A DNA stretch of 64,000 nt from Gimesia alba (GTDB taxonomy: Bacteria > Planctomycetota > Planctomycetia > Planctomycetales > Planctomycetaceae). Every line of letters begins with the position of its first letter. The first letter of the stretch is position 1. The DNA lies in the NCBI RefSeq assembly GCF_007744675.1, contig NZ_CP036269.1:806001-870000 (forward strand), read 5' to 3'. The translations under genes and the position numbers were made by a program. Shown here piece by piece: positions 9,133 through 27,412 of this stretch. The notes below the pieces were generated by a model. The model was not told the DNA's origin, made no database searches, and saw only the letters and a list, made by a program, of their open reading frames with translations.

Positions 9133-9415
9133 AGCGGCTCTGATTGTCTGGTTTTCCTGAGTGATGAGGGTTTGCATCAGCGTGCTGGTTTCCCTTGAAA
9201 ATCGGACATATACCCCTACATCTGCTTTGATAATGGTTGTTTCAGTGAATTGGCCCGCATAGAATGACGGGATCACTGAGACTGGCTTTGAGGGGTTCCC
9301 ATCTGTCGGGCGTCCGTTTTAGGAATGCTGTTCCTGCAAGGCTCTCAAGCAGTCTTTGCTTTTCTGAACGAACGAAATCAATCACTGAGCTTAACCATAC
9401 GAGGAGCTAACGGGA

Positions 9416-10216
9416 ATGTTGCCCCGCCGCGAAGTTTTTCCACACGTTATCGAAATCAACTATCAGGCCAGACAGCGTTTGGGATGTTGTGTTTACCTCG
9501 TATTCAATGATCAGAATGAATGGTTGTTGATTGATATCGGGTACGAAGATACGGTTTCCGAAATCATCGAGATGATCCGCCAGATGGATTTTCCGCTGGC
9601 GAATTGTAAATATCTGATTGCCACGCACGCTGATGTGGATCACATTCAGGGGTTGAGCCGTGCCAAAGAGTTATTGCCTGCAGCAGAAGTCATAGCGCAC
9701 CCAAGTGCGGCTCGCTTGCTTGAAGTCGGAGATCGGATCAGTACTTATGCCGAGATCAGTGCGCAGGGAATTTCGATCGATATGCCTGCCTGCAAGGTGG
9801 ATCGGGAAGTCAATGAAGGTGATGTGATTGAGCTGGGGAAGGACATCCAGCTGGAAGTCTGGCATACCCCCGGTCATACCGACGGTCAGCTGGCCTTTCG
9901 TTTCGGCGATTTGCTGTTTTCCGGTGATAACATCTATCGTGACGGCTGTGTGGGACACATTGATGCCCATCACGGGTCCGATATTCCTGATTTCATCAAG
10001 TCCCTGGAGCGCATCCGCGACTGCGATGCCAAATGGCTGCTACCCAGCCATGGTCCCATTTTTCGGAACAAAAAAGAACTGCTGCAGGCGACTATTGATC
10101 GTTTGAATACATACCTGCATATGGCCGATTTTGGGACGTGTGCCATCGATTGGCCGTTGCAGGACGAGTGGGATGAAGAACTGCTGAAGGGATTTGATCC
10201 CGAGACCGCCGAATAA
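9416..10216 (+). CDS. MBL-fold metallo-hydrolase
   Basis: 266 residues. The metallo-beta-lactamase fold is shown by [12 protein letters not shown] (HxDxDH variant of the metal motif, with Asp in the second position), [21 protein letters not shown] and [10 protein letters not shown] near the end. Such proteins are binuclear metal hydrolases such as glyoxalase II-like enzymes. It appears monocistronic, with a 283-bp gap before it and 535 bp after. The substrate is unknown. Confidence 0.88.
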
Positions 10217-20962: not shown

Positions 20963-22171
20963 ATGTCTGATCTGAATACTTTATTTGAAACGAAGCGGCG
21001 GCAGCGATTTCGCCGGCAATTAATTGCGTGGTATGCGGCGCATCAGCGTGATTTACCCTGGCGGCGGCTGGCTGAACCGTATGCGGTCTGGATCAGTGAG
21101 ATCATGCTGCAGCAAACGGTCGTGGCAGCCGTGATTCCCTACTTTGAAAAGTTTCAGGATCGCTTTCCCGATGTGCATGCGCTGGCATCTGCTGACGAGA
21201 GCGAAGTACTGCAGCATTGGGAAGGGCTCGGATACTACAGCCGGGCGCGGAATATTCATAAGGCGGCCAAGATCGTCTCAAATGAGCTGCAGGGAGAATT
21301 TCCGCAGAGTGTCGAGGGCCTGCAAAAATTGCCGGGAATCGGTCGCTATACGGCAGGGGCGATTTGCTCGTTTGCGTATGACGAGCGGGCACCAATTGTT
21401 GAGGCGAATACGTTGCGGCTGTATTCGCGGTTGATCGGGCTGGAAGAAGATCCCCGATCCAAGGCTGGGCAAAATCAGCTGTGGGAATTTGCCGAGTTGA
21501 TCCTGCCGCGGAAGTCACCCGGCGATTTCAATCAGGCGTTGATGGATTTGGGGAGTCTGGTTTGTACGCCTCAAAATCCCGATTGCGGTGCATGCCCGGT
21601 GAGTGCCGGGTGCGAAGCCTTTTTGAACCAGCGGCAGCATCTGATTCCCCGTCCCAAGGCACGTCCGGAGATCACGCCGTTGACCGATGCCAGCATTGCC
21701 GTTTTCAGGGAGGACGCCGTCTTGATCCGACAGCGGGAGTCAGACGAGCGCTGGGCCGGCCTGTGGGACTTTCCCCGGTTCACGCTGGAGGATTTAAATG
21801 GTGTGTCGCATCCCGCTGCCACTCGCAAGAAAAACAGTGGGCAGAAGCTGCTGTTTGAAGAGACACCGCGTCAAACGGCACGAGGCGTTGAGATGCCCGC
21901 CGGCTTGCCCCGCGATGTGCTGGGGCAACTGGAAGCATATGTACGAGATCACGCGGGCGTGGAGGCGGCCGTTCAACAGTTCGTATCCGAGATCCGTCAC
22001 AGCGTGACCCGATATAAAATCCGGTTGCTTTGTTTTATCGCGCAGGCGGAGCCTGCTGATGCAGGAGATTCCGCAGGCAGCTATCAATGGGTCAGGGTAA
22101 GCGATCTGGAATCGTATCCGTTGTCAGTGACGGGGCGCAAATTTGCGAAACTGCTGGCGGAACTGGTGTAA
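20963..22171 (+). CDS. mutY: A/G-specific adenine glycosylase MutY, with Glu at the catalytic Asp position
   Basis: 402 residues. MutY removes adenine mispaired with 8-oxoguanine. WISEIMLQQT contains the catalytic Glu46; LQKLPGIGRYTAGAI is the helix-hairpin-helix; the 4Fe-4S cysteines are Cys201, Cys208, Cys211 and Cys217 (C-X6-C-X2-C-X5-C). The C-terminal NUDIX-like domain that reads 8-oxoG begins near residue 245 (ASIAVFREDAVLIRQRESDE) and includes WAGLWDFPRF. The second catalytic residue, Asp in the usual DGNV motif, is Glu147 here (PIVEANTLRLYSRL). Confidence 0.93.
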   Translation: MSDLNTLFETKRRQRFRRQLIAWYAAHQRDLPWRRLAEPYAVWISEIMLQQTVVAAVIPYFEKFQDRFPDVHALASADESEVLQHWEGLGYYSRARNIHKAAKIVSNELQGEFPQSVEGLQKLPGIGRYTAGAICSFAYDERAPIVEANTLRLYSRLIGLEEDPRSKAGQNQLWEFAELILPRKSPGDFNQALMDLGSLVCTPQNPDCGACPVSAGCEAFLNQRQHLIPRPKARPEITPLTDASIAVFREDAVLIRQRESDERWAGLWDFPRFTLEDLNGVSHPAATRKKNSGQKLLFEETPRQTARGVEMPAGLPRDVLGQLEAYVRDHAGVEAAVQQFVSEIRHSVTRYKIRLLCFIAQAEPADAGDSAGSYQWVRVSDLESYPLSVTGRKFAKLLAELV

Positions 22172-22184
22172 CCGTTCGCAGAGC

Positions 22185-22200
22185 CGAAATAGAATAGGCG
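22185..22200 (+). repeat. Left 16-bp direct repeat bracketing the RAYT island
   Basis: CGAAATAGAATAGGCG; the partner at 26601-26616 differs at one base. Confidence 0.55.
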
Positions 22201-22210
22201 TTAGCCCCGG
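22199..22210 (-). repeat. Dispersed GTTAGCCCCGG repeat, copy A
   Basis: Core CGTTAGCCCCGG. On the minus strand it supplies the last codons (Arg-Gly) and TAA stop of the hypothetical gene at 22201-22719. Copies in the other orientation are at 26622 and 27784. Confidence 0.6.
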
Positions 22211-22719
22211 CTAGACTCGTTATCACCGGAGTTAATCTTACTGACGAGTGCCCTTAGCTTTTCGAGCTGATTCCGAATATCGAAAAGTGCTTTGGAATCC
22301 ACCTCGCATACCAGCTGCAATCGGAGGCAGTTGACGCTCCAGCCTGGTGAGGGAGAGTGACACACGATTTTCAGGCCACCGTCGCGTTTTTGCTGAAAGC
22401 GGAGGTCTAGGTAACCATCGAGTCCCAGGAGCTGCATTTCGTTTTCGGAATTTGTCGGTTCTGTGAGGACCGTTTCGAGCTCCTGCAAGGACTCGGGCTC
22501 AACGAAATCACAAATGTCATATTGGAGTCTACGTTTCTCTTCTTCATATCGTGCCGTCAGGTAAAGGCCATAAATGCAGTTCCGATGAGCAGGGGCGAGG
22601 TTTCCGTTGGTGTCCTTCTCGTAACCGGTGGGAATAATCCGCAATCGTGCCGGCCCGAAGTGTTCAGAGATGATGGGAAAACACAATTCATATTGTGGTA
22701 ACCACTCCGGAAAGGGCAT
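22201..22719 (-). CDS. Hypothetical protein, possibly a WapI-like immunity protein
   Basis: 172 residues starting MPFPEWLPQYELCFPIISEH. It is a soluble alpha/beta protein without signal or membrane segment. The C-terminal pattern VNCLRLQLVCEVDSKALFDI followed by RNQLEKLRALV resembles, from memory, the end of WapI-type contact-inhibition immunity proteins, but this is a weak match. Its stop codon is formed by a dispersed genomic repeat. It is the first gene inside the block bracketed by the 16-bp direct repeats. Function unknown. Confidence 0.7.
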   Translation of the reverse strand: MPFPEWLPQYELCFPIISEHFGPARLRIIPTGYEKDTNGNLAPAHRNCIYGLYLTARYEEEKRRLQYDICDFVEPESLQELETVLTEPTNSENEMQLLGLDGYLDLRFQQKRDGGLKIVCHSPSPGWSVNCLRLQLVCEVDSKALFDIRNQLEKLRALVSKINSGDNESSRG

Positions 22720-22764
22720 GCAGGAACTCCTGAAGAGGTGAGTCTTGAGAAAGGCCAGATAGAA

Positions 22765-22803
22765 AAAGGGGGCAGGACTCTATCAAAGATACCTGACCCC
22801 TTT
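22765..22803. repeat. Solo REP-like hairpin 1 of the RAYT repeat family
   Basis: AAAGGGGGCAGG pairs with CCTGACCCCTTT (one G/A mismatch). An inner TATC/GATA stem closes an AAA loop, with ACTC bulged on one side. The outer arms match the ends of the two RAYT units nearby. Confidence 0.8.
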
Positions 22804-22830
22804 ATGCTTTTCTTCTATAAGTAAATTATT

Positions 22831-23250
22831 TTATTCAAAAAAATAACTAAAATCTCGCTGTTCGGTCTCCCATTCACTTAAATGCCATGCACCCTTATTA
22901 CCTTTAATAAATGTAGCAAATATGTAGGGATTTGCTACATTTTCAATTTTAAACACAAAGTGCTTTCTTCGCACACTGAAACCAATTATACGTTCTCTAA
23001 TCGGTTTGACTATCTGATCAAATTGTTCTTTCGAAATTCCCTCCCTCAAACTCTCATTAACAGTTTGATTCTGAGTCAATTCTGTTTTCATATCAACTGA
23101 TGATTGTATTTTGGGAGAGGCTGGAATAGATACGAGATACTCCTTATTTGACATGTGATATTTGTTATGTGTTAACTGATATGTTAATAAAAACACAATA
23201 CTAATCATTAAGGTTGCTAAGAACAAAATCCGAGTTACCCTACTTTTCAT
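22831..23250 (-). CDS. Hypothetical membrane-anchored protein, AT-rich
   Basis: 139 residues. One N-terminal membrane segment (ILFLATLMISIVFLLTYQLT) after a basic start suggests a signal anchor with the rest outside the cytoplasm. The remainder includes QFDQIVKPIRERIIGFSV and a C-terminal WHLSEWETEQRDFSYFFE. I do not recognise the family. The base composition is far more AT-rich than mutY next door, which suggests acquisition from elsewhere. It lies exactly between solo hairpins 1 and 2. Confidence 0.7.
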   Translation of the reverse strand: MKSRVTRILFLATLMISIVFLLTYQLTHNKYHMSNKEYLVSIPASPKIQSSVDMKTELTQNQTVNESLREGISKEQFDQIVKPIRERIIGFSVRRKHFVFKIENVANPYIFATFIKGNKGAWHLSEWETEQRDFSYFFE

Positions 23251-23266
23251 CCAATTTACCTTAACT

Positions 23267-23306
23267 AAAAAGGGGGCAGGACTCTTAGATTATACTGACC
23301 CTTTTT
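23267..23306. repeat. Solo REP-like hairpin 2 of the RAYT repeat family
   Basis: AAAAAGGGGGCAG and CTGACCCTTTTT form an imperfect stem with a loop beginning GACTCTTAG, the same sequence family as the RAYT ends. Confidence 0.75.
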
Positions 23307-23336
23307 ATATCCTAATTTCTTTTAAGCTTCGTATTC

Positions 23337-24044
23337 ATGAAAAGCAGTAACATAATAAAAAAAATATTCGGTCTCGAGAAAATTATTTTATTTGTTTTTG
23401 TATCTCTGTGCTTTGTTGGACCATGTATATGGTGGGATTCGAATAGCTATGTGAGTTCAGATGAATTATGGGATGCCATTCAAAGAAGTAAAATTAGCTC
23501 GAGTGATAGATTACTGTTACACCATCTAGTTTATGATGATAAAGCATGGAGTTCAGGACTTATTGGCACATATCTTTCTCCTGGTCTAGAAAAACGGATT
23601 GTCTGGCAATCAAAGTACCAGAATAATTCGGGAGGTTTTAATCATATTTTTCTTTTGAATCAGTATCTAGAACCTGGAGTAAAGCCTTTGTTTCCTGTCA
23701 CCTGTATCATTACCGACAAAGATTTTAAACTTCAGGCATGGGAAACGTTTATTCTTTCATCTTCAGGAATAAATTCGGTCGAGATTTCTCAAGATACTGA
23801 AAATCTATTAATTGTTACAGCAGTATGTGGTTGGACTTACGGAAAGGGTATTCACAAATATGCTTTGTATTCAAATAAAATAACTGATTTAGGAAATGTC
23901 CAATTCAAACAGTTTAATCGGGGAGAAACGCCTGAGACGTTATTGGTTCCTTTCATGTCTGAAAGTGAATTTCGATCACTGAATTTGAATTTCTCTAACC
24001 GGATTAGAAGAATGCTTACTGAGAATAGGAAACTTGCAAGATAA
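23337..24044 (+). CDS. Hypothetical membrane-anchored protein, AT-rich
   Basis: 235 residues. A basic N-terminus and a hydrophobic segment (IILFVFVSLCFVGPCIWW) suggest membrane anchoring or export. The rest shows Trp- and Tyr-containing strands (TAVCGWTYGKGIHKYALYSN) and a basic C-terminus. No family recognised. It is AT-rich like the 139-residue gene. Its TAA stop touches the left end of RAYT unit 1, and hairpin 2 ends 30 bp before its start, so it fits tightly between two repeat copies. Confidence 0.7.
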   Translation: MKSSNIIKKIFGLEKIILFVFVSLCFVGPCIWWDSNSYVSSDELWDAIQRSKISSSDRLLLHHLVYDDKAWSSGLIGTYLSPGLEKRIVWQSKYQNNSGGFNHIFLLNQYLEPGVKPLFPVTCIITDKDFKLQAWETFILSSSGINSVEISQDTENLLIVTAVCGWTYGKGIHKYALYSNKITDLGNVQFKQFNRGETPETLLVPFMSESEFRSLNLNFSNRIRRMLTENRKLAR

Positions 24045-24045
24045 A

Positions 24046-24784
24046 AAAGGGGTCAGGACTCTTTTCTGGTGCGAGGCCTGCCGCGGGGGCGGGTGGTGCT
24101 TTCTAATGAGAGCCTTTTGGCTGTGTTGCTGGTCCATTTTTCGTTGCCGAACGGGGTGCCGCGGACGTTGCATTTTCGGAGAGCGGCCAGCTCGGCATCG
24201 GTCTGGGGTTTGTTGACCAGGGCGCGCCAGTTTCGTGGCAGCGGTGGATTCTTTGGCGTCGCCAGCCATTCCGGCGTATCCTGTTTCTGCTGTCGGGCCC
24301 AGGCGGAGCCGTATTCCCACTCCTCTGCCTTCTGGACCAGATTTGCCCGCAACGGGTTGCGTTCGACGTAACGCATCACGGTCAGTAAATGGTCGTCAGA
24401 CTGAATCGGAAACGACTTGAAACGTCCCTGGTACAGGTGGCCGGTGCCGCCGGTTGCGTAGTGAGCGTGCCAGCGCATTGTGTGGGTGACGGTGAGCAGT
24501 CGAAAGAAGTCCGTCAGCTGGGTATCCGTCGTGGGCCGTACGACAAAGTGCCAGTGATTGGGCATCACTGACATCGCGAAGATCGGCAGAGGATTTTTCT
24601 GCCACGTTTCCTCCACCACCCGCATAAACGCAGCATAATCGTCCGGCTTCTCGAACAGAGTCAGCCGCGCAACAGACCGGTTCATCACATGAAACACCTC
24701 ACCGGCAGGACAGATTCGTTTGGCTCTAGGCATGCCCCAAGTCTAGCAGAAACCAGAGAGAATGAAAAGAGTCCTGACCCCTTT
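24046..24784 (-). mobile_element. RAYT unit 1 (739 bp) with 21-bp perfect inverted ends
   Basis: The ends are 24046-24066 and 24764-24784, perfect inverted copies of a 21-mer with core GAGTCCTGACCCC. The single gene inside is the RAYT. Nearly identical to unit 2. Confidence 0.85.
24053..24733 (-). CDS. REP-associated tyrosine transposase (RAYT, Y1/IS200-like), copy 1
   Basis: 226 residues, MPRAKRICPAGEVFHVMNRS. The HUH motif is MPNHWHFVVRP (His60 and His62) and the nucleophile Tyr is Tyr122 in MRYVERNPLRANLV; GHLYQGRFKSFPI between them is typical of RAYTs. These single-strand transposases act on REP hairpins and usually do not move as classic insertion sequences. The last residues (KES) and TGA stop are encoded by the terminal repeat. 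A basic Arg-rich C-terminus may bind DNA. It differs from copy 2 at six residues (positions 4, 17, 33, 37, 82 and 189). Confidence 0.93.
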   Translation of the reverse strand: MPRAKRICPAGEVFHVMNRSVARLTLFEKPDDYAAFMRVVEETWQKNPLPIFAMSVMPNHWHFVVRPTTDTQLTDFFRLLTVTHTMRWHAHYATGGTGHLYQGRFKSFPIQSDDHLLTVMRYVERNPLRANLVQKAEEWEYGSAWARQQKQDTPEWLATPKNPPLPRNWRALVNKPQTDAELAALRKCNVRGTPFGNEKWTSNTAKRLSLESTTRPRGRPRTRKES

Positions 24785-24864
24785 ATCTGTCCACATTTCA
24801 ATTCACCACACAAATTGCTCGTTATGTTATTGCGAGTCATATGAAATCTCATAGATTGCAGAGA

Positions 24865-25653
24865 TTATGGGCGACTATTTTTCCACGCAAGGCACTTTTT
24901 AAGATACAAGTTCAAATGCTTAGCAGCTTCAGGGCAGTCTTTCCAGATTCTTTGAAATTCAGAAAATCGCTGTCCCAGAATCGGGGATCGTTTCTGTGCT
25001 TGTGGAGAATTTGGAGTGAATAACAGGAAAGTCTGATTTATTAGTGCTTTACTCTCAGTTTCTACATTAGCGATATCAGCAGCCAGTCGTTCTGCTGATT
25101 TTAAATCTACAACCTTGGACACTAGCTCAAGATAATGCTCTTCACAATCAATACTTTTATTAATCAATTCCTGATCTTCTGGAGAAATTGTTTCTGGTGG
25201 TCCTCCTCCTCGTTCGCCAGCCCCTGCCCAATTTAAAGCCTTTCTTCGATGCGTTAAAATGCTAAAGCCGTGTTCGTAATCCAATGAAGTTCTGAAATCA
25301 AATGCGATATATGAAACCTTGTTTTTATGATCCGCCAGAATCGTAACGGTATTTGGTTCTACTAATTCGTAAAATCCATCTAAAGTATTCAGTCGTTTGC
25401 GAATGTCACGTTTTTCACCATTTAACGAGCTTAGTTCAGGAAGCGACTCTGAATAGTACGCTGATTTACATTGCTGAAAGGCATATTTTAAAGTGGCTTT
25501 TGCAATAGGATTTGCATTTGCACATAAATATTCAAATGCAGCTTCTTGTTCAGATGTGGGCGGTTTACCATCTTGTGACTCAATTTGGAGCTCTAGCAAC
25601 ACCGGTCCATTATTCGGTTCACTTTTTTCTGATGCTTCGGAGAGATAATCCAC
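24865..25653 (-). CDS. DUF6985-like hypothetical protein, probably frameshifted near its 5' end
   Basis: 262 residues from a GTG at 25653. Segments KPPTSEQEAAFEYLCANANP and VSYIAFDFRTSLDYEHGFSI recall, from memory, DUF6985-type proteins; the function of that family is unknown. The N-terminus looks incomplete. An ATG at 25748 opens a second frame (MSIIDKMNYAPEYEAWLGNV) that runs into this one around 25660-25668 if one base is added, giving a protein of about 294 residues. So this is either a pseudogene, a recoded gene or a sequence error. It lies between the two RAYT units. Confidence 0.6.
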   Translation of the reverse strand: MDYLSEASEKSEPNNGPVLLELQIESQDGKPPTSEQEAAFEYLCANANPIAKATLKYAFQQCKSAYYSESLPELSSLNGEKRDIRKRLNTLDGFYELVEPNTVTILADHKNKVSYIAFDFRTSLDYEHGFSILTHRRKALNWAGAGERGGGPPETISPEDQELINKSIDCEEHYLELVSKVVDLKSAERLAADIANVETESKALINQTFLLFTPNSPQAQKRSPILGQRFSEFQRIWKDCPEAAKHLNLYLKKCLAWKNSRP

Positions 25654-25785
25654 ATCACAATCCCACAGGATTCAAACCCCGATAATTCCACATTTCCAAG
25701 CCAAGCTTCATACTCAGGTGCGTAATTCATTTTGTCAATAATGCTCATGGCAACAACCTATTATCAAGATATTAAGGAAATGGAA

Positions 25786-26531
25786 AAAGGGGTCAGGACT
25801 CTTTTCTGGTGCGTGGCCTGCCGCGGGGACGGGTGGTGCTCTCCAATGAGAGCCTTTTGGCTGTGTTGCTGGTCCATTTTTCGTTGCCGAACGGGGTGCC
25901 GCGGACGATGCATTTTCGGAGAGCGGCCAGCTCGGCATCGGTCTGGGGTTTGTTGACCAGGGCGCGCCAGTTTCGTGGCAGCGGTGGATTCTTTGGCGTC
26001 GCCAGCCATTCCGGCGTATCCTGTTTCTGCTGTCGGGCCCAGGCGGAGCCGTATTCCCACTCCTCTGCCTTCTGGACCAGATTTGCCCGCAACGGGTTGC
26101 GTTCGACGTAACGCATCACGGTCAGTAAATGGTCGTCAGACTGAATCGGAAACGACTTGAAGCGGCCCTGGTACAAGTGCCCGGTGCCGCCGGTCGCATA
26201 GTGGGCGTGCCAGCGCATGGTATGGGTCAGGGTAAGCAGTCGGAAGAAGTCCGTTAGCTGGGTATCCGTCGTGGGCCGTACGACAAAGTGCCAGTGGTTG
26301 GGCATCACTGACATCGCGAAGATTGGCAGCGGATTTTTCTGCCACGTTTCCTCGACCACCCGCAAGAACGCAGCACAATCGTCCGGCTTCTCAAACAGAG
26401 TCAGCCGCGCAACAGACCGGTTCAGCACATGAAACACCTCACCGGCAGGACAAATTCGCTTCGATCTAGGCATGCCCAAAGTCTAGCAGAAACCAGTGAG
26501 AATGAAAAGGAAAAAGAGTCCTGACCCCTTT
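25786..26531 (-). mobile_element. RAYT unit 2 (746 bp)
   Basis: Left end 25786-25806, right end 26512-26531, inverted. Compared with unit 1 it carries a 7-bp GAAAAG-like slip duplication just inside the right end. Partial tandem copies of the end (CCCCTTTTCTGACCCG) follow to about 26560. Confidence 0.85.
25793..26473 (-). CDS. REP-associated tyrosine transposase (RAYT), copy 2
   Basis: 226 residues from the ATG at 26473; a TTG two codons upstream is not shared with copy 1. It has the same catalytic set as copy 1: His60-Trp-His62 and Tyr122. The six differences from copy 1 avoid the active site, so both look functional. It has the same orientation as copy 1, 1740 bp away. Recombination between the two could delete the DUF6985-like gene. 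Its stop codon also lies in the terminal repeat. Confidence 0.93.
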   Translation of the reverse strand: MPRSKRICPAGEVFHVLNRSVARLTLFEKPDDCAAFLRVVEETWQKNPLPIFAMSVMPNHWHFVVRPTTDTQLTDFFRLLTLTHTMRWHAHYATGGTGHLYQGRFKSFPIQSDDHLLTVMRYVERNPLRANLVQKAEEWEYGSAWARQQKQDTPEWLATPKNPPLPRNWRALVNKPQTDAELAALRKCIVRGTPFGNEKWTSNTAKRLSLESTTRPRGRPRTRKES

Positions 26532-26600
26532 TCTGACCCGCCCCTTTTCTGACCCGGACCAAGTCGTGAAGGGGCAGAAGGAAGCGTTTTCTATTGGTGA

Positions 26601-26616
26601 CGAAATAGAATTGGCG
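26601..26616 (+). repeat. Right 16-bp direct repeat bracketing the RAYT island
   Basis: CGAAATAGAATTGGCG, 15 of 16 identical to 22185-22200. Confidence 0.55.
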
Positions 26617-26621
26617 AGAAA

Positions 26622-26645
26622 CCGGGGCTAACGCCCTGCGGCTAA
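26622..26645 (+). repeat. Dispersed GTTAGCCCCGG repeat, copy B
   Basis: CCGGGGCTAACGCCCTGCGG and following CTAA; the reverse complement of the copy A core. Confidence 0.65.
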
Positions 26646-26929: not shown

Positions 26930-27412
26930 CTAGCTGGACAGGTCTTTAAAGAGTGTCCCGAATTCAGGCATGTCCTGTTCCAGAAGGTTTTGCCAGGCTT
27001 CCAGATTCCAGATTTCAACACAGATCACTGCGCCGACAATCATGACTTCCTGGTTGGGTTGCACTCCCAGAAATTCTCGAAATCCTTCGGGTATTGTGCA
27101 GCGAGAGCGATTTGCCAACTGGATGGTCCGATTTCTGGTCGACAGTAATCGTCCCAGGCGTTGCACTTCCTCCCAGCGGTTTTCCAGTCGGTGTGCCTGA
27201 ATTTTTTGTTTAATCAGATCCACACCCTGCTGGTGTCTGGCTTGCCAGTCTGCGGCTTTCCAGAGGCTGAGACATCCGGCTCGTTCCTTGGTCAACAGCG
27301 TTTCCCCGGATTCGTCAGTAATCGCCTGGGCCATTTCTACGGGAAGAGAAATACGAAAGCGGTCGTCGACCGTTCGTTTTGTTTCTCCCGAAATAAATGT
27401 TTCGCCGTTCAT
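26930..27412 (-). CDS. Orphan MraZ-like regulator (double AbrB/SpoVT fold)
   Basis: 160 residues. Two swapped-hairpin repeats are seen: [20 protein letters not shown] near the start and [20 protein letters not shown] in the second half, then [20 protein letters not shown] with WQNLLEQ, closely matching the MraZ C-terminus. The DxxGR signatures of true MraZ are altered to DDRFR and ANRSR. MraZ normally heads the division/cell-wall cluster and represses it by binding GTGGG repeats. Here no rsmH or fts gene follows. The promoter carries palindromic GGG-N7-CCC sites, so autoregulation is likely. Confidence 0.82.

Follow-up and report, generated by a model that had tools for sequence, protein, structure and literature searches.

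TIRYT genes, or tyrosine transposase genes associated with terminal inverted repeats (TIRs), and TIRtrons are described as a Y1 transposase gene between such repeats, many of which fit GGGGWSAS (Di Nocera et al. 2013, PMC3733652; subclass 2.1 in PMC6006769). TIR families are reported to be dispersed as dimers and clusters, with R. baltica named as rich in such genes (PMC3733652). In Pseudomonas, many strain-specific genes are described as lying in deserts of repetitive extragenic palindromic (REP) sequences (PMC3390384). The window analysed here is a 64-kb stretch of Gimesia alba (NZ_CP036269.1, positions 806,001 to 870,000), and its subject is an island between mutY (20963-22171) and an MraZ-like gene (26930-27412), in which TIR hairpins and two TIRYT-type units alternate with short genes. 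R. baltica is a planctomycete, as is G. alba. In this genus, hairpins form joints in the DNA, and different genes stand between them at one site. We give an even chance to the reading that hairpins related to TIRYT units are recombination joints in a variable gene compartment and also serve as insertion targets of IS110 and IS4-like insertion sequences (IS).

Read from mutY, the island consists of a 172-aa open reading frame (ORF), solo hairpin 1 (22762-22807), a 139-aa gene, solo hairpin 2 (23265-23309), a 235-aa gene, TIRYT unit 1 (24043-24787, minus strand), a DUF6985 gene and TIRYT unit 2 (25783-26534, minus strand). Each unit is built of inverted GGGGTCAGGACTC ends around a Y1 transposase gene (24053-24733 and 25793-26473), and the right tail of unit 2 is duplicated. 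The four exact matches to GGGGTCAGGACTC are the inverted ends of both units, and the solo hairpins bear the variant GGGGGCAGGACTC, one mismatch away. With up to two mismatches, GGGGTCAGGACTC is matched 7 times in the window, a number reached in none of 100 shuffles (mean 1.17, maximum 4). Folded as single-stranded DNA, the solo hairpins attain -12.8 and -7.7 kcal/mol, values that 0 of 200 shuffles equal. An earlier note on this DNA had counted four copies of one repeat family, two as solo hairpins and two as units with inverted ends, and this is confirmed against the shuffles. Its statement that exactly one gene lies between successive copies holds for the three named genes in the gaps and leaves uncounted the 172-aa ORF (22201-22719, minus strand, GC 50.9%, without a Pfam match). 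No hairpin lies between mutY and the 172-aa ORF, so that four of the five gene gaps carry a repeat.

The two transposase proteins are 97% identical, are encoded on the minus strand and match Pfam Y1_Tnp (E 2.5e-12 for 24053-24733, 1.1e-11 for 25793-26473), with NHWH and YVERNP motifs read by eye. GGGGTCAG, which fits GGGGWSAS, starts both inverted ends of both units. The consensus drawn from 26 hairpins and their 8-nt flanks shows no GTAG foot, so that 'REP-associated tyrosine transposase (RAYT) with REPs' is not an exact name. No helix-turn-helix domain is matched in the transposases by Pfam at E<=1, and the enzyme is therefore not placed in subclass 2.1. The RAYT of the earlier note is thus a Y1 transposase that, to judge by its motifs and ends, resembles the TIRYT/TIRtron description more than GTAG-REP RAYTs. 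In the genus set of 17 genomes (this one and 16 congeners), transposase matches at E<=1e-30, full or partial, occur in 13, with seven in the G. alba genome itself.

The mutY site is variable among close relatives. All 40 genomes searched contain a MutY match: this one, the 16 congeners and 23 further genomes. In 15 of the 16 congeners, the MraZ-like gene follows about 0.5 kb or less after the end of the mutY alignment, with no island match there. The closest congener (G016; 96% MutY identity) is the only one with an insert at the site, 4.2 kb in length, comprising a 127-aa ORF, a DUF2262 gene (E 1.9e-10), a DUF6985 gene and an element with a DDE_Tnp_1 transposase, labelled IS4-like by us, with its ends inside a GGGGTCAGGAC hairpin. 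Only one segment, 24794-25717 around DUF6985, is common to the window and this insert (85% nucleotide identity, 937 aligned columns). The insert has no match to the TIRYT units, and the 139-aa and 235-aa genes are also not found at the G016 site. The conservation of the same three genes in the same order in strains without the RAYTs, which the earlier note had named as evidence against itself, is therefore not cleanly seen.

From the shared segment, DUF6985 already occupied the site when the two lineages diverged. In the window, this segment begins 12 bases past the CCCC of TIRYT unit 1, and its opening 59 bases (19 codons; 24794-24852, minus strand) are the start of a DUF2262 gene. Of these bases, 57 are identical to the start of the G016 gene; the remainder of that gene is not present in the window. 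Unit 1 cuts a gene that is whole in G016, and in the window the transposon consequently arrived after the genes. Judged from this alignment, DUF6985 is older at this site than the left transposase unit, which sits on the ruins of a neighbour gene.

The exchange of genes between hairpins recurs at other sites of the genus. In the following, G000 is the G. alba genome (7.77 Mb, window G000:C1:806001-870000), other G numbers are the genomes compared and L numbers the fetched loci. One such site is flanked by a 339-aa and a 490-aa gene, the former strongly matched in 6 of the 17 genomes, one partially. Hairpin arrays occupy this site in four of the six (G000, G013, G005 and G009), and no hairpin is detected in the fetched stretches of G010 and the short G007 contig. 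By BLAST, the G000 array has no inner genes in common with the other three, and those of G013 and G005 have two common segments in opposite order, with segment A also in G009. Within the G000 array, about 62 bases of the 339-aa gene end are repeated beside a hairpin (L061 7122-7183). At a third site with the same flanks, DUF6985 in G005 (contig 6) faces two other genes in G001, beside GGTGTCAGGAACC hairpins or arms. The comparison of related genomes proposed in the earlier note thus shows that, at one and the same site, the single genes found between copies differ from genome to genome and stand in another order. Single segments are also common to unrelated places (L063/L064, L127/L129, L127/L108, L127/L102, L102/L101 and L077/L126). 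The ends that DUF6985 adjoins are of GGGGTCAGGACTC type in G000 and of GGTGTCAGGAACC type in G005; a further DUF6985 search of genome contigs returned two loci, both from Gimesia sp. SAT87, with no new context.

A simple ORF picker underlies the neighbour-gene, clustering, breakpoint, segment-end and interval-content analyses, and some of its 'genes' may be spurious. In 37 hairpin-to-hairpin intervals of 150-2500 bp from the fetched loci, with transposase-holding intervals and loci L086, L131 and L142 excluded, one ORF of at least 90 aa is found in 23, two in 9, three in 2 and none in 3, a count without control. GC between hairpins is 45.9 (n=47) vs 50.2 for other genes in the same loci (n=406; p 2e-4). 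Among 30 ORFs of such loci scanned by Pfam, five pass the cut-off: SUKH (L058), DUF2262 (L039) and ankyrin (L060, L061, L064). The ankyrin, DUF2262 and DUF6985 genes may be linked to immunity. The G. alba genome holds 67 repeat matches (both strands), with 36 hairpin places among the matches listed, of which 10 neighbouring pairs lie within 1.5 kb (mean 0.25, maximum 3 in 10,000 random placements). The even spread among core genes that would have counted against the earlier note is therefore not cleanly found either, with the hairpins clustered and several solo hairpins between genes of ordinary composition.

Segment ends are in excess near hairpins, at roughly twice the intergenic chance in the same loci, with most breakpoints elsewhere. 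In blocks of at least 85% identity, 290 of 317 breakpoints were used, 27 near transposases being dropped. A repeat stands no more than 5 bp from 27 of these, against 11.7 on average and 23 at most in 1000 null draws; for a distance of up to 20 bp, the corresponding figures are 41, 18.4 and 33. In the test of shared-segment ends, from which the mutY loci of the 15 island-free congeners were excluded, 47 segments classed by script as non-syntenic have 45 of 94 ends no more than 30 bp from a repeat arm (500 null draws: mean 24.5, maximum 40) and 56 within 60 bp (null mean 33.7, maximum 47), and 31 syntenic segments have 26 of 62 ends within 30 bp (null mean 15.5, maximum 25). Genes are cut at joints in the window (DUF2262), in L064 and in L077 (a 325-aa gene). 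In the hairpin pair L068 8024 and L077 7757, 127 bp of left flank and left arm are common, and the right halves and the DNA that follows differ, the pattern expected from an exchange inside the hairpin. Neighbouring hairpins are more alike than distant ones (0.540 vs 0.412 for 28 pairs), a difference reached in 0 of 5000 resamplings.

Several points weigh against reading the hairpins as recombination joints. A total of 249 of the 290 breakpoints lie more than 20 bp from hairpins, and the number of non-syntenic ends within 10 bp of an arm, 26 of 94, is not beyond all 500 null draws (mean 15.2, maximum 28). The 47 'non-syntenic' segments include the 339-aa/490-aa flank genes with an offset differing by more than 5 kb, segment pairs are not independent, and the loci were picked for holding hairpins. 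The genomes compared are different species, in which no exchange was watched. Several joints stand 11-13 nt outside the hairpin CCCC, a position that transposase cleavage would fit too. In the G. alba genome, neighbour likeness is weak (0.435 vs 0.394), and one G001 neighbour pair is counted twice because the contig ends hold the same 15 kb. This duplicated stretch (L131, L132; 99.8% identity), probably an assembly overlap, also inflates the hairpin count of G001.

In the proposed course of events, TIRYT-type units with inverted GGGGTCAGGACTC ends, present here in two copies, would seed hairpins. In structure, a solo hairpin is a left end joined directly to a right end with no gene in between, and it may have been derived from a unit in this way. 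Hairpins of GGGGTCAGGACTC and sister families are scattered over the chromosome and locally crowd together among short accessory genes; some few of these genes are predicted to be of immunity-protein type (SUKH by Pfam). Similar hairpins of 45-60 bp flanking neighbouring segments would then permit recombination at or beside them, possibly by a RecA-type exchange or by template switching at the palindrome; the RecA length threshold in E. coli is cited as about 30 bp (PMC2884548), and the hairpins here are longer. Such events could delete, swap and re-join the intervening DNA, producing the look of one gene per gap. TIRYT would supply hairpins and need not take part in each later exchange. The G005 array, for which only a TIRYT remnant was found, is counted in favour of such hairpin joints.

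Dependence on the transposase was assessed from hairpin and transposase matches per genome, the hairpin counts including both strands and concerning the matches listed. The correlation is not significant (Spearman 0.44, p 0.079, n=17; 0.36, p 0.18 without G006 and G015), and transposase matches were rejected as a predictor of hairpin matches. G005 combines at least 14 hairpin matches (both strands) and an array with no transposase match at E<=1e-30; the TIRYT remnant in its contig 20 indicates that it may have lost the enzyme. That TIRYT drives the exchanges is not shown. The cassette array maintained by RAYT, as suggested in the earlier note, is not supported by these results: hairpins do not significantly track the transposase, the G005 array stands with a remnant only, the units are not gene-precise, and the transposon came later than DUF6985. 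Its proposal that the repeats are entry points for foreign genes is borne out in part, by IS110 and IS4-like elements in or beside hairpins.

Hairpins may instead accumulate passively, inserting where selection is weak in accessory islands that turn over for other reasons, so that both merely coincide. The solo hairpins between genes of ordinary composition fit this explanation, as do the different hairpin families that flank DUF6985 in different genomes, the majority of breakpoints away from hairpins, and two G012 DUF6985 loci in which no hairpin is detected, one with a hairpin/IS-end remnant about 1 kb away. It is rendered rather doubtful by the segment ends, which are found close to hairpins at about double the rate of random intergenic points in the same loci, and by like-hairpin sites that hold different genes.

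A second explanation, which we regard as doubtful, is that TIRYT acts in trans on hairpin pairs and carries the intervening DNA in the form of single-strand circles, generating composite or non-autonomous cargo elements and thus a true RAYT-type cassette system. The hairpin-gene-hairpin order of the window is built like a non-autonomous element. A block of hairpin, 271-aa gene and hairpin is 98% identical in G005 and G001, with one flank differing, and the space separating two TIRYT units of G013 is taken up by a 171-aa gene that recurs at 99.5% in G009. The joints 11-13 nt 3' of CCCC also agree with it, and a TnpA-REP enzyme is reported to cut in vitro on the 5' or the 3' side of its REP (PMC8266576), which keeps transposition in consideration. 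However, no hairpin-ended gene unit occurs in several separate copies within one genome among the loci compared, and hairpins also bound gene fragments. The array of G005, with its mere TIRYT remnant, stands against this explanation as well. The only repeated unit inspected, a 1.26-kb stretch of G008 in three 99-100% identical copies ending at hairpins, was first taken for a gene cassette and is an IS110.

Another reading holds that Gimesia maintains a gene-cassette array based on the HUH transposase TIRYT, in which single immunity-type genes with a one-end TIR hairpin would be excised single-stranded and re-inserted next to resident hairpins. No integrase would be needed, and each species would assemble its own defence repertoire at fixed places in the chromosome. 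This is improbable in our estimation, and a strict integron-like reading is rejected on account of the mixed orientation and of truncated genes as segments.

Insertion sequences do use the hairpins. In G008, G014 and G016, IS4-like elements lie within hairpins or next to them, and IS110 interrupts hairpins in G008, where its copies (L081 7817-9078, L082 9327-10568, L103 9644-10905) share the same insertion point in TIR hairpin arms. IS110 is an RNA-guided family, and its guide may therefore read the TIR. In G000 L058 (4729k), a stretch at 9186-9793 holds a SUKH gene (9197-9736) between ends like a hairpin arm plus an IS4-like end, without a transposase; it is possibly a mobile insertion cassette. 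That hairpins are simply IS110 and IS4-like targets, with decayed or cargo-bearing IS copies explaining the single genes, is nevertheless very unlikely. In its favour, each of the four complete IS4-like copies from the fetched loci lies no more than 200 bp from a hairpin arm, three of them on both sides, and the interrupted G008 hairpins and the L058 SUKH gene agree with it; against it, no IS end was noticed by eye beside the window solo hairpins, with no systematic search for IS remnants made.

The genes enclosed in the island differ in composition from mutY, as the earlier note had stated (GC 56.7% for mutY). The AT-rich 139-aa gene (22831-23250, minus strand, GC 32.6%) has no accepted Pfam family and no match better than E 0.004 in the 16 congeners. 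The AT-rich 235-aa gene (23337-24044, plus strand, GC 34.5%), with no Pfam family above the cut-off, has relatives at other places in 2 of the 16 congeners (60% and 41% identity). One relative in G001 (L098 7280-8560) lies between inverted repeats of GGGGGCAAGGTCAG type, another repeat family, beside transposase pieces that look IS3-like by eye. DUF6985 (24865-25653, minus strand, GC 39.7%) is assigned by Pfam at E 4.7e-11. Gene orientation in the window is mixed. No tyrosine recombinase was found in nine window proteins scanned by Pfam, the other window genes and the other sites not being searched.

At the edges of the island, a 15-bp direct repeat GAAATAGAATNGGCG was read by eye, with a left copy at 22186-22200 and a right copy at 26602-26616; the 15-mer was not seen at the left edge of the G016 insert. 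A second repeat family, CCGGGGCTAACGCC, brackets the island as well, in inverted copies (22186-22211 and 26602-26634, and also about 27783), and this family has very many genus copies among the matches listed. Hairpin right tails are in several cases repeated once directly behind the hairpin, for example CCCCTTTTCTGACCCG twice, as a tandem duplication of unexplained origin (window 26516-26560; L057 6651-6690 and 17744-17790; L061 11453-11490; L065 9327-9370; L083 7789-7825).

Compared with known systems, the Gimesia units share with TIRtrons a Y1 gene with inverted ends fitting GGGGWSAS and TIRs dispersed as dimers and clusters; the passages of PMC3733652 that bear on this do not mention genes gained or shuffled between TIR dimers, whereas Gimesia has several units per genome and hairpins at the joints of variable islands. 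REPIN-RAYT systems likewise have a dispersed hairpin of two inverted repeats, linked to a Y1 transposase (Bertels and Rainey 2011, as described in PMC3116915), but the Gimesia consensus lacks their GTAG foot. ISPpu9 of Pseudomonas putida is described as an IS inserted into palindromic repeats (PMC8450116); in Gimesia, two kinds of IS use the TIR hairpins, and none of the window's single genes is an IS. The closest functional picture is that of the recombinase-associated acquired interbacterial defence (rAID) arrays of orphan immunity genes in Bacteroidales, characterized in the cited account by short AT-rich genes including SUKH and by conserved intergenic motifs (PMC12247911). These have a predicted tyrosine recombinase and co-oriented genes (PMC12247911), whereas Gimesia has a Y1 transposase and mixed orientation; measured against co-oriented short genes below 41% GC, the window shows mixed orientation, with 3 of 4 genes below 41%. 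In the titles, abstracts and passages of the literature searched, no description was found of genes shuffled between REP or TIR repeats. If hairpin recombination holds true, tiny selfish palindromes would let bacteria shuffle single genes, perhaps immunity genes, without a dedicated integrase, and the named Gimesia sites make this idea testable. REP-like repeats are often taken as passive or, in the Pseudomonas account (PMC3390384), as markers of older, stable DNA, with REP deserts that are the reverse of the Gimesia case. In Gimesia, by contrast, TIR hairpins stand at the joints of highly variable DNA, and sister species carry different genes between like hairpins.

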